Source: Candidatus Methanophagales archaeon
GTDB lineage: Archaea; Halobacteriota; Syntropharchaeia; Alkanophagales; Methanospirareceae
NCBI GenBank assembly: GCA_025966525.1
Contig: JAPDIG010000007.1
Location: 1 to 40,824, forward strand
DNA length: 40,824 bases
Direction: 5' to 3'
Part shown: one piece after another, positions 5,984-11,742 of the stretch
Layout: each line of letters opens with the position of its first letter
How positions within the stretch are numbered: the stretch's first letter is position 1
The notes under the pieces: generated by a model
Database searches by the model: none
Told to the model about the DNA's origin: nothing
The model's input: the letters and a program-made list of their open reading frames with translations, nothing else
Position numbers and translations under genes: made by a program

Positions 5984-7834
5984 ATGTGTGGAATTGTGGG
6001 GTATGTAGGAGAACGAGAAGCGCTGCCAATCATCTTAGACTCGTTGAAAAGGATTGAATACAGAGGATATGATTCCTGTGGTGTGTTTGTGTTGGAAGAT
6101 GGCGAGCCGAAGCTACATAAAGATGCGGGAACCATTGACCATTTGAAAAAGAACTTATCAGAATCTGAGTACAAGGGTAAAGTAGCAATTGGGCACACGA
6201 GATGGGCAACACATGGAGCACCATCGAAAAAAAATGCGCATCCTCATCTCGACGGCAAAGGCGAAATTGCCGTCGTCCATAATGGTATAATCGAGAACTA
6301 CCAATTAATAAAAGAGGAGCTTTTGAGCCTGGGATGCAAGTTCGTATCAGAGACAGATACGGAAGTCATACCGCATCTGATAAACCTTTCTTTAAAAAAG
6401 AAAGCTTTACTAAAGAAAGTTAGTTCAGAAAAGTTTGATTGGCAACTAAAGGAAGCGGTAAGGGAAGCCTTAGCTTGTTTGAATGGGTCTTATGCAATAA
6501 TAGTCGCAGCAAAGGGTTTTGACGGGTTGATAGCAGCGAGAAAGGAATCTCCGCTCATTATAGGTGTTGGAGACCGTGAAAATTTTATCGCTTCTGACGT
6601 ACCGGCAGTGCTTGAACAAACGAACAGAGTAATTTATTTGGAGGAGGGAGACCTCGCAGTTGTAAAAAAGGAATCAATTTACATAGAGAACGGTGGTGCA
6701 GAAGTAAGGAGGGAAGGAAGATTAATACCCTGGACGATAGAGGACGCCGAGAAAGGAGGATACGAGCATTTCATGCTGAAAGAAATTCATGAGGAGCCAA
6801 GGGCAATTATGGATACGCTTAGAGGTCACATAGCCGAGGATGGGATAAATCTGGGGATTGATTTTAAGATCGAAGGTGGTGCGAAAGGCAGAAGCATTTT
6901 GATGGTTGCATGTGGAACGTCCTATTATGCAACTCTGTGTGGGAAACAGATAATAGAGAATTTAGCAAAGGTGCCTGTTCAAGTAGAGCTTGCATCAGAG
7001 TTCAATTACTCTGATTTTGTGCTGGATGGCACGAATATAATAGCAATGGCAATTACACAATCTGGGGAGACCGCGGATACATTGATGGCGCTGAAAAAAG
7101 CGAAGAGATACGGTAGTAAAACAGTGGCACTAACAAATGTCGTAGGGAGTTCGGCTACGAGAATTGCGGACGAAACGATATACATGGGTGCGGGTCCGGA
7201 GATAGGCGTTGCAGCGACAAAGAGCTTTGTTGCACAACTCGTCATTTTTTATCTGCTGGGTTTGTCCCTCGCGAAGATGCCAGAGAGTGAGTTTGTGGGA
7301 TATTTAGAGGAGCTAAAGAGAATGCCGCAAATAGCTCAAATAGTGCTTGACGAAGCAAATGGGGACATACAAAAGCATGCCAGGTATTTTTCCAAATACG
7401 AGCATGCGTTCTTCATTGGAAGGGGAGTAAATCTGCCTATTGCCCTGGAGGGAGCGTTAAAACTGAAGGAAATATCGTATATCCATGCAGAGGGATACGC
7501 CGCAGGAGAACTCAAACACGGACCTTTTGCACTGCTTACCGAAGATACACCCGTAGTTGTGATTCTGACCCATGATAATGTTTATGAGAAGACTTTGGGG
7601 AACGTGAAGGAGATAAAGGCAAGAGGGGCACCGGTGATTGCGATAGCAGAAGAAGGGGACGAGGAAGTGGAGAAATATGTGGATGCGGTGATAAGAGTTC
7701 CGGGGACAAGTGCAATATTCTCCCCAATCCCCAATACTGTTGCTCTTCACTTACTCGCGTACTGGACGGCAAAAGAGCGGGGATGTGAAATTGACAAGCC
7801 GAGGAATCTGGCAAAGAGCGTGACGGTGGAGTGA
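5984..7834 (+). CDS. glmS: Glutamine--fructose-6-phosphate aminotransferase (isomerizing)
   Basis: MCGIVGYVGEREALP N-terminal Cys glutaminase, GHTRWATHG, two SIS domains (CGTSYYA, SQSGETADT-type ITQSGETADT), C-terminal KPRNLAKSVTVE. Confidence 0.95.
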   Translation: MCGIVGYVGEREALPIILDSLKRIEYRGYDSCGVFVLEDGEPKLHKDAGTIDHLKKNLSESEYKGKVAIGHTRWATHGAPSKKNAHPHLDGKGEIAVVHNGIIENYQLIKEELLSLGCKFVSETDTEVIPHLINLSLKKKALLKKVSSEKFDWQLKEAVREALACLNGSYAIIVAAKGFDGLIAARKESPLIIGVGDRENFIASDVPAVLEQTNRVIYLEEGDLAVVKKESIYIENGGAEVRREGRLIPWTIEDAEKGGYEHFMLKEIHEEPRAIMDTLRGHIAEDGINLGIDFKIEGGAKGRSILMVACGTSYYATLCGKQIIENLAKVPVQVELASEFNYSDFVLDGTNIIAMAITQSGETADTLMALKKAKRYGSKTVALTNVVGSSATRIADETIYMGAGPEIGVAATKSFVAQLVIFYLLGLSLAKMPESEFVGYLEELKRMPQIAQIVLDEANGDIQKHARYFSKYEHAFFIGRGVNLPIALEGALKLKEISYIHAEGYAAGELKHGPFALLTEDTPVVVILTHDNVYEKTLGNVKEIKARGAPVIAIAEEGDEEVEKYVDAVIRVPGTSAIFSPIPNTVALHLLAYWTAKERGCEIDKPRNLAKSVTVE

Positions 7835-7839
7835 AATCT

Positions 7840-8420
7840 CCAACAACCTTTCGTATCATAAGCTTCAGATGGCTCCTGGGAGGAGAGAGGTCTATGGGAA
7901 GTTCTTCCGGAGTTTCGTATAGAAGCTAAAGTTTTCGCTTACACTTATACATGCACATATAAGTTCTAACAGCTTTTTCTAGAGTTGAAAACGTAGGTAC
8001 ACCACTTTTGTAGAAAAGTCTCCTCGCTTGCCCATCCACACGGTTAGGAGTGGTATAAGTTTCTTTTCCACTATCTTTAGCACCTTTTTAGCTAAATCGG
8101 TTGATTGTGCAGATCACTATAATCCCATCAACATTCGGGCCGGATAGGCATGCCCTTATAGCCTTTCGACATCAGCATCTCCCAGTATGTCTAATGGGTT
8201 CCCCCTGCTCCAGCAGAGGAATTCCTCCAGGGTGAGTTTCAGCTCTTCCGAAAGTTCCGCCATTTCCCCACCGTTATCGATAACGGAATCCGCAGCCATG
8301 ACGCCAGGGCACCGGCATTAGAGATGATGGCTAAGCGTGGTCCGGCTGGAAGATATTTCGAATACGCTCTTTGGATTAAGCATGCATTCTATTCGATACA
8401 TTTACAGCCCAGCTACTATT
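7840..8420 (-). pseudogene. Decayed ADP-forming acetate/acyl-CoA synthetase alpha-subunit (AcdA-like) remnant
   Basis: Reverse-strand fragments in shifting frames line up in family order: AYSKYLPAGPRLAIISNAG / PGVMAADSVIDNGGEMAELSEELKLTLEEF..GNPLDILGDADVERL* / ACLSGPNVDGIIVICT / STDLAKKVLKIVEKKLIPLLTVWMGK / KSGVPTFSTLEKAVRTYMCMYK / LLYETPEELPIDLSPPRSHLKLMIR; several frameshifts and stops. Confidence 0.85.
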
Positions 8421-8487
8421 AAATATGAATACATATATCAAAATATGAAGTAATAAAGAGATTTTTTTAGGGAAAAAGGGATAAAAA

Positions 8488-10347
8488 GTGGCAGGCGAGG
8501 CAAGATTTTTGGGAACATGGGCTAAACAGACGTTCTATTACGCAATCGCAGGTATTTTAGTTGCTCTTGCAATCGCAGGCTTCTTTTTAGCTTTGAATTT
8601 CTTCTCTCCTTTGTTTTTAGAGCTACTCGGTGGTTACTATCCGCCGACACCAGAAAATGAACCTCATTTCTTCGCTTTCACCCCCCTCTTAGGGGATGCC
8701 TTCACCAATCCGCTATTGTTGGTTCTATTAGCCCTTATTCCAGCATTTGGCGGTCTGATATGCGGATTAGTAAAATTTAAACTTCTTCCGGTTGAAAAAC
8801 CAGAACTACACGAGACTGATGTGTTCATAGACGGGTTCCACAATGAGAAGGGAGTAATAAAAGGCAAGACCGGCTTGATGCGAGGAGTATATTCGGTGCT
8901 GACGATTGGCTCAGGCGGAAGTGCGGGGAGAGAGGGACCGAGTGCAATGCTGGGTGCGACAGTGGGTTCGGTTTTCAGCAGATTTTTAAAATTAGACGTG
9001 AGAGAAAGAAGGAAGATTGTATCAGCGGCAGCAGGAGCAGGAATAGCAGCGATTTTTAAATCGCCACTTGGTGGCGCATTCTTTGGTATTGAAACTTTAT
9101 ACAAGCGAGATATGGAAATAGAGGCGCTGGTTCCTGCGATAATTTGTTCTATCACAGCGTATATCGTCTCCTGTTATTTCTTAGGACTGGGGCACCTTTA
9201 TGAAATAGGAGAATATGACACGGCAGCCCTTTTAAAACCTTTTTCTTTGCTTCTATTTCTGGCTCTTGGATTAGCATGTGTTCCCTTTGTTATTGCATTT
9301 GCCAAACTGCTGGAGATAATAAGGTCTTTTTTCTTCGGAAGACTGAAGATTCCTGACTACCTCAAACCAGGAATAGGCGGATTTATGATTGGTATCCTTT
9401 TCCTCATTGGTTATCTCATTGTTAATCCACATCATGGGGTAGAAAGGGGGATAGGAATAGCGAGCGGAATATTTGGTGGGGGGTATGGATTTATACAGTT
9501 AACATTTTACGGCAAGCTTACATTGAGCGTTTTAGTATTCATCGCAGTTGCGAAAATCATAGCGACTGCTTTAACCTTAGGGTCAGGAGGTAGTGGTGGC
9601 TCGTTTCTACCCTCTTTAACCATGGGTGCGGCGTTAGGAGGAGCAATAGGACAGGCACTCAGCTATTTCTTCCCAGAAACGGTAGGGAACCCGTGGGTAT
9701 ATTCACTTATCGGCGCAGCGGCTTTCTTTGGTGCCGCGGCTAATGCACCACTCACTGCGCTTTTCATCGTTTGTGAAATCTCAGGTTCTTATACACTGTT
9801 TGTTCCCACTTTACTTGCTATAATCCCTGCTTATTCCCTGGTAGGTAGATGGACGATTTATCCAGGTCAATATGAATTAAGGAAGGAGTCGCCAGCCCAT
9901 AGGAGAGAATTCATGATAGATATACTGGAGGGGATAAAAGTGAAAGATGCATATACGAAGGATGTGCTCGTTATTCCAGCAGATAAGACGGTGAAAGAGG
10001 GACTCCATTTTGCAGAGAGAACAGGGCACATAACTTACCCGGTGGTTGATAAAGAAGGGAAGATGGTGGGAATAACGACCATAGTGGATTTAGAAAAACA
10101 AAGAGAGATAGGCGCGGATTATAGGAGAATAAGGCTGATATGCACGAAGGATGTGATAGTAGCATATCCAGAGGAGTTTTTGGAAGATGTGCTGCATAAG
10201 ATGGACACTTACAATATAGGGCGATTGCCAGTGGTAAAAGGGGGAAGTGAAGAAGGCGAGAAAGAATTGTTAGGAATAATAAGCAGGTCGGATATAATAA
10301 GGGAGCACTGCCGCAGATGGTCGCGTATTAAGATGGAGTCTTCATAA
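8488..10347 (+). CDS. CLC-family chloride channel/transporter with C-terminal CBS domain pair
   Basis: GSGGSAGREGPSAMLGA, GSGGSGGSFLPSLTMGAALGG, many TM segments, C-terminal CBS pair; GTG start. Confidence 0.92.
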   Translation: MAGEARFLGTWAKQTFYYAIAGILVALAIAGFFLALNFFSPLFLELLGGYYPPTPENEPHFFAFTPLLGDAFTNPLLLVLLALIPAFGGLICGLVKFKLLPVEKPELHETDVFIDGFHNEKGVIKGKTGLMRGVYSVLTIGSGGSAGREGPSAMLGATVGSVFSRFLKLDVRERRKIVSAAAGAGIAAIFKSPLGGAFFGIETLYKRDMEIEALVPAIICSITAYIVSCYFLGLGHLYEIGEYDTAALLKPFSLLLFLALGLACVPFVIAFAKLLEIIRSFFFGRLKIPDYLKPGIGGFMIGILFLIGYLIVNPHHGVERGIGIASGIFGGGYGFIQLTFYGKLTLSVLVFIAVAKIIATALTLGSGGSGGSFLPSLTMGAALGGAIGQALSYFFPETVGNPWVYSLIGAAAFFGAAANAPLTALFIVCEISGSYTLFVPTLLAIIPAYSLVGRWTIYPGQYELRKESPAHRREFMIDILEGIKVKDAYTKDVLVIPADKTVKEGLHFAERTGHITYPVVDKEGKMVGITTIVDLEKQREIGADYRRIRLICTKDVIVAYPEEFLEDVLHKMDTYNIGRLPVVKGGSEEGEKELLGIISRSDIIREHCRRWSRIKMESS

Positions 10348-11742
10348 AAGTAGATAATCCGGTCTATAAACTATATTTCTCATCACATCTCCCCAATCCA
10401 CTTCCGTCATCACGCACCCGGTCTTTGAAAGCACCACGCCTATCATTGGAACCCCTTTGGATGTAACATATCTCATTGTTTCGTAAAGGTCATGCTGACA
10501 GGCAATGCCCATCGCAGCCCGAGGCTGTTTATCCCTTACAGCGCGCTTGACAAACTCGCCACCAGGTGCAATGCAAATTTCTACACCGTGTTCGTCACAC
10601 ATCTTTTTAATCTCTGCAATACCGCATCTACCACACTCTGCACAGATTATACCTTCTCGCGGCGATGTCTTCGCAGGACATTCGAGGTTGCGAAGGCACT
10701 GAGGCAGGAACAACAACCTCTTATTCATCGGTGCCTTTCCATACGCATCTTTATATATCGAATTCATCAGCGCAATGCCTATTTCATCTATGATTACTGG
10801 ATTTATATGGAAGTATCCAAGGAATAGCTTGGAGGGTTGGTAAAAGAGGTTGAGTACAAAGAGCGTGAATCTTGGGAATAGGTCTCGTTTATAAATGGCT
10901 AGGCCCACAGCAGTTAAAATTAGCGCTACCAACGCCACAGCAAAGATTACAAAAATTTCGCCCACTAATACATACACCGAGTCAGGGATAAGGGAATAGG
11001 GAATAGCCAAATAGGGAAATAGAGAACTGATATTAGCTTGTCTATTGCCCACGTGGATATTAGATAATAATTTATTTATTATTTCTTCACGGTCAACAGT
11101 AGTATTGACGCATCCGGGAGTAATTAAAGGTACGCCTTGCGCTATCACACCCATGAGCTTCGCGTTTAACATCCCTTCATGCAGGTTTGGGTAGCAAGCA
11201 ACGCCTACCACCGCTTTTGCTTTTGGTCTGCTGTACATGAGGATACGCCCTGTGAACGTCCCACCTGGCGATATGTACATCCTGATGCCAAGTTCTTTAC
11301 AAATAGCACTTAGTTCTGCAATCATGCATTTACCGCATTCCATGCAATGAATACCATCTACCGGGTTCAGTTTAGCCGGGCATTCCGTGCTTCGGATGCA
11401 CTGCGGCAGGAGTAGAACACGCTCTTCCATGCTCGTAGCAGCGAAATCAGGATAGTTAAGTGCGTTTCTTATCTCTACTGATACACGGTCTATCAGACTC
11501 GGGTCAACACGAAAGAAGGAAAGCAACCTCCGTAACGGTTCGTAAAGCAGAGTTATTATGAACAGCACGAAATTAGGTAATAATATTCTTTTGGTATGTA
11601 ACGTAAAGGAGCAAAAGAGGAGCGCTAATACTAAGAGAACCACAAATGCTAATGCTAAAATTATTATCACCTTCCCTATTGCTTCGAGCACCAAACTTTC
11701 TTTGAGAAAGAAAGCGTGAGCAAATGGACTGAAGAAAGTCAT
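10342..11742 (-). CDS. DUF116 membrane protein with two tandem DUF116 units
   Basis: Two copies of LLPQCxRxxECPAKxxPxxGIxCxECGxCxIAE...PGGxFxxR...xxGxAC, each preceded by TM segments. Confidence 0.85.
   Translation of the reverse strand: MTFFSPFAHAFFLKESLVLEAIGKVIIILALAFVVLLVLALLFCSFTLHTKRILLPNFVLFIITLLYEPLRRLLSFFRVDPSLIDRVSVEIRNALNYPDFAATSMEERVLLLPQCIRSTECPAKLNPVDGIHCMECGKCMIAELSAICKELGIRMYISPGGTFTGRILMYSRPKAKAVVGVACYPNLHEGMLNAKLMGVIAQGVPLITPGCVNTTVDREEIINKLLSNIHVGNRQANISSLFPYLAIPYSLIPDSVYVLVGEIFVIFAVALVALILTAVGLAIYKRDLFPRFTLFVLNLFYQPSKLFLGYFHINPVIIDEIGIALMNSIYKDAYGKAPMNKRLLFLPQCLRNLECPAKTSPREGIICAECGRCGIAEIKKMCDEHGVEICIAPGGEFVKRAVRDKQPRAAMGIACQHDLYETMRYVTSKGVPMIGVVLSKTGCVMTEVDWGDVMRNIVYRPDYLLL

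Follow-up and report, generated by a model that had tools for sequence, protein, structure and literature searches.

The gap at 7835-8487 of the window (the whole analysed stretch of 40,824 nucleotides, from the Candidatus Methanophagales genome called G000 here) contains what is left of an ANME-1 ACD-GNAT fusion gene, a pseudogene of relatively recent origin whose parent joined an ADP-forming acyl-CoA synthetase (ACD) to a GNAT acetyltransferase; we put the probability of this reading at about 95%. The remnant yields no functional protein and most likely does nothing.

Location and reality of the remnant

All of the peptide blocks quoted in the original prediction were found on the minus strand, in the right order and in differing frames. 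The gap was indeed invisible to an ORF track, having no internal ORF of at least 90 aa; the lone ORF of that size reaching into 7835-8487 (minus strand, 7536-7859) is antisense to glmS. The extent first given for the remnant, 7840-8420, was approximately right, and the corrected bounds are 8401 (start codon) to 7835 on the minus strand. The earlier list of blocks included neither the segment with the start codon (8401-8364) nor the 833-bp deletion (Table 1). The stop of glmS (7834) abuts the remnant, with homology to relatives ending one base beyond, at 7835, and the stretch 8402-8487 is upstream of both the dead start codon and the divergent ClC gene.

When 59 related genomes were searched, the gap DNA was 78-80% identical to sequences in G023, G002, and G001 (E = 2e-130 to 1.3e-155) and 72% identical in G035 (E = 6e-96). 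In tblastn, the protein of an intact relative matched the gap in three different frames, at 128, 105, and 35 bits, far past chance, since the top score among 100 shuffles of the gap was 23.9 bits. The first 19 codons of the intact relative's protein scored 24 bits, and support for the start segment comes from the DNA alignment with intact genes (90% identity with intact orthologues over bases 1-29) rather than from tblastn.

Table 1. Features of the gap and its two flanking genes, in window positions
Feature	Position	Strand	Description
glmS	5984-7834	+	intact flank; Pfam SIS, GATase_6; matches relatives full-length
Block ARRLFYKSGVPTFSTLEKAVRTYMCMYK...LLYETPEELPIDLSPPRSHLKLMIRKVVGD	7835-8029	-	nonsense TAG 7928-7926; homology ends beside glmS stop
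Block STDLAKKVLKIVEKKLIPLLTVWMG	8030-8112	-	closed by 16-bp deletion at 8030/8029
Block IRACLSGPNVDGIIVI	8113-8161	-	closed by 17-bp deletion at 8113/8112
Block PGVMAADSVIDNGG...NPLDILGDADVER	8162-8310	-	6-bp in-frame deletion 8216/8215; 10-bp deletion 8162/8161
Block RYLPAGPRLAIISNAG	8311-8363	-	first residues altered in window; closed by 1-bp deletion (frameshift) at 8311/8310
Junction of 833-bp internal deletion	8363-8364	-	about codons 13-290 of intact gene gone
Start remnant MYRIECMLNPKSV	8364-8401	-	ATG 8401-8399 and about codons 1-13; aligns with starts of intact orthologues
ClC chloride channel with CBS domains	8488-10347	+	intact; divergent from remnant; Pfam Voltage_CLC, CBS

Anatomy of the lesions

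Between the anchors of the large deletion there were 836 bases in G023 and 3 in the window, the deletion not being a multiple of three, and a GAGTGT repeat stands at both ends of the deleted 833 bp in the intact gene, which suggests, without proving it, that the deletion arose between these short repeats. The TAG codon is in frame, and GAA or GAG occupies the same codon in four aligned relatives. Pyrrolysine read-through of TAG codons was considered and ruled out: no pyrrolysyl-tRNA synthetase (PylS) scored above the curated cut-off in G000 or seven relatives, and the TAG was therefore taken as a real stop. The 3' half of the gene is missing, with the ATP-grasp and GNAT parts absent from the window copy.

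An intact gene could be made to look broken by assembly or sequencing indels, as the genome is a draft and one lesion is a single base. However, sequencing error was rejected as the cause because the deletions are too large: losses of 833, 17, 16, 10, and 6 bp stand beside a TAG for GAA/GAG and the loss of the 3' half, and the missing piece was on no other contig, so that an artefact is very improbable. Only slightly less improbable is that the sequence has been retained in another role, encoding a short peptide or a non-coding RNA or controlling the ClC gene; 8402-8487, upstream of the ClC gene too, may carry a promoter, but the remnant has mixed frames and several stops, an Rfam search of the window returned nothing, and no conserved copy in the remnant's form occurred among the relatives searched. 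A plasmid DNA search also returned nothing.

The claim of a pseudogene was thus borne out by several disabling lesions relative to intact orthologues and by the lack of an intact copy in the genome, and its recent decay by a remnant that can still be aligned base by base with the relatives' genes. The same lesions were not found in a second genome among the relatives searched. Unique changes at codon positions 1/2/3 amounted to 8/143, 8/158, and 13/103 in the window and to 7/142, 5/155, and 10/100 in the intact gene of G002, a weakly relaxed pattern with small counts that fits recent decay and does not by itself prove loss of constraint.

Parent gene

The remnant is collinear with the intact genes of relatives, which encode 889-916 aa (889 aa in G023; 916 aa in G002, L011:5435-8185). 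The Pfam order in these intact orthologues is CoA_binding_2, Succ_CoA_lig, Ligase_CoA_2, ATP-grasp_5, and then a C-terminal GNAT acetyltransferase, and the best solved matches were protein acetyltransferases of 877-886 aa, matched full-length (residues 4-887 aligned; E = 6e-166). A synthetase plus a GNAT domain is the architecture of the type I GNAT enzymes, such as Salmonella Pat and E. coli PatZ (PMC8556138). The intact orthologues share with Pat/PatZ both order and size, about 700 aa of NDP-forming acyl-CoA synthetase followed by about 190 aa of GNAT. A tree of 33 proteins placed the remnant within the ANME-1 Pat-type fusion clade (support 100/99); the next relative of the ANME-1 fusions was Hadesarchaea, and the plain ACDs were distant, on long branches. 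Because the remnant filled only 19% of the columns, its precise position inside the ANME-1 group is not secure. The remnant therefore descends from a gene with an N-terminal synthetase part and a C-terminal GNAT domain and, having no GNAT domain itself, is not a working member of that family.

In the original prediction, the parent was a plain ADP-forming acetyl-CoA synthetase (AcdA or ACD). The surviving blocks do fall in the part common to ACD alpha subunits, one block is matched by the ACD of G000 itself (37% identity, 38 bits), and CoA_binding_2, Succ_CoA_lig, and ATP-grasp_5 are common to ACD and the fusions. However, the ANME-1 ACD-GNAT genes match at 78-80% in DNA and, across the columns that survive, at up to 86% in protein, whereas the plain ACD is a far poorer match that lies outside the remnant's clade, is intact in G000, and is about 36-38% identical to the intact fusions; moreover, ACD has no GNAT domain while the remnant clusters with the GNAT-bearing clade and neither derives from a GNAT-less gene nor groups with ACD. 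An origin from plain ACD is accordingly hardly tenable. The similarity to ADP-forming acyl-CoA synthetases was correctly seen, but the parent was an ACD-GNAT fusion of Pat/PatZ architecture according to domains, solved matches, and tree.

Acetate enzymes kept by the genome

A search of G000 for an intact acd gene found one plain ACD of 698 aa on contig C5, and one AMP-forming acetyl-CoA synthetase scored above its cut-off. No other pieces of the lost fusion gene, including its ATP-grasp and GNAT halves, were found elsewhere in the assembly (126 contigs, 95% completeness; unassembled sequence may hold an intact copy), so that, within the limits of this assembly, the fusion was lost rather than moved. 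The suggestion that an acyl-CoA/acetate energy-conserving enzyme had disappeared from this lineage or been relocated in it could consequently not be upheld: what disappeared was a fusion with an acetyltransferase.

Previous studies reported ANME-1 to be without acd (PMC7414198) and acd to be present in all ANME clades (PMC10134854). The 698-aa ACD-like gene here and the similar genes that occur in many of the 51 family genomes agree with the latter report (PMC10134854). The intact ACD gene corrects a possible misreading of this methane-oxidising archaeon as having lost an acetate energy-conserving enzyme.

Function of the intact relatives

The intact relatives retain the acetyl-CoA-binding motif R/QxxGxG, and the ANME-1 copies retain a Glu that corresponds in the alignment to residue 809 of the solved enzyme. 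From these sequences, the ancestral enzyme would have acted as a type I protein acetyltransferase (Pat/PatZ), its GNAT domain moving acetyl from acetyl-CoA onto protein lysines (predicted lysine acetyltransferase activity) and its synthetase-like part binding acyl-CoA. That part perhaps still catalyses, because the relatives retain the active-site histidine motif of ACD: SHTG was present in 30/30 orthologues examined, so that the synthetase part is not inactivated there through loss of the catalytic histidine. In the window copy, the SHTG region had gone with the 833-bp deletion. The alignment has a gap at SHTG in the solved 886-aa enzyme, whereas ANME-1 and the other searched orthologues have the motif; likewise, enterobacterial Pat is without the synthetase histidine motif whereas the archaeal and related fusion versions have it. 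In the literature, the missing histidine is stated for class II, and the synthetase part of bacterial type I (class I) enzymes is called inactive (PMC8556138).

The intact orthologues may thus be bifunctional, as synthetase and acetyltransferase, and the retained histidine motif makes bifunctionality a testable case. Further, we propose tentatively, and consider rather doubtful, that the ANME-1 fusion, whose nearest searched relative is a Hadesarchaea gene and which may have arrived by horizontal transfer, retains an active synthetase site, by which a single protein could link acetate/acetyl-CoA energy metabolism with protein acetylation, and that it is undergoing separate losses in several lineages, the window being one such case.

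A cognate deacylase for the fusion was not evident, with no match to the sirtuin SIR2 in 4/4 genomes of the window's genus, including one with an intact fusion. AMP-forming acetyl-CoA synthetase was present in genomes both with and without the fusion. Coupling of the fusion to either the sirtuin or this synthetase was considered and showed no clear association.

Fate of the fusion across the family

Close copies of the fusion were surveyed in 51 family genomes, where draft assemblies may hide some. The gene was intact in G002, G023, and G067, had one internal TAG in G035, and was broken in G001 (start lost, internal deletion, frame breaks), in G020 (about codons 11-134 only), and in G073 (about codons 413-441, attached to part of an ACD); G065 had a more distant copy (59%). 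The lesions differ in G000, G001, G020, and G073, which points to repeated and independent losses, and the fusion gene seems to have been lost repeatedly in ANME-1. A Pat-type acetyltransferase fusion is thus patchy and repeatedly broken in this group; the window remnant is ordinary gene decay, and the family-level story is mildly interesting.

In G073 (L038:4745-5558), fusion codons 413-441 are joined to codons 603-642 of a plain ACD beside a broken MarC gene, suggesting recombination between fusion and plain ACD genes during decay.

Locus order in relatives

Comparison with relatives, one of the checks proposed for the original prediction, found intact fusion genes in G023 and G002. ClC directly after glmS was absent in the relatives compared, so the glmS/remnant/ClC order of the window reflects rearrangement or deletion. 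The divergent ClC-fusion arrangement also occurs in G067, where the ClC is only 52% identical.

At loci L001, L011, and L037 we also observed a P-type ATPase gene: in G000 and G023 (where it is shortened) it immediately precedes the plain ACD, and in G002 it immediately precedes the ACD-GNAT fusion, as though fusion and ACD had changed places at one site. The glmS gene, intact in the window, has a fragmented match in G001 and, in G002, a match in which one segment is shifted (L024, L015).

Other genes

The GlmS of G004 (contig C88:7009-10194, L028) and of G020 (C99:12080-15271, L025) is interrupted in frame after residue 71 by an insertion of about 430 aa, giving open frames of 1083 aa and 1085 aa, respectively; the window's GlmS is without this insertion, which is possibly an intein. 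At 10342-11742, the window encodes a 466-aa protein in which a DUF116 stretch occurs twice, apparently through tandem duplication.
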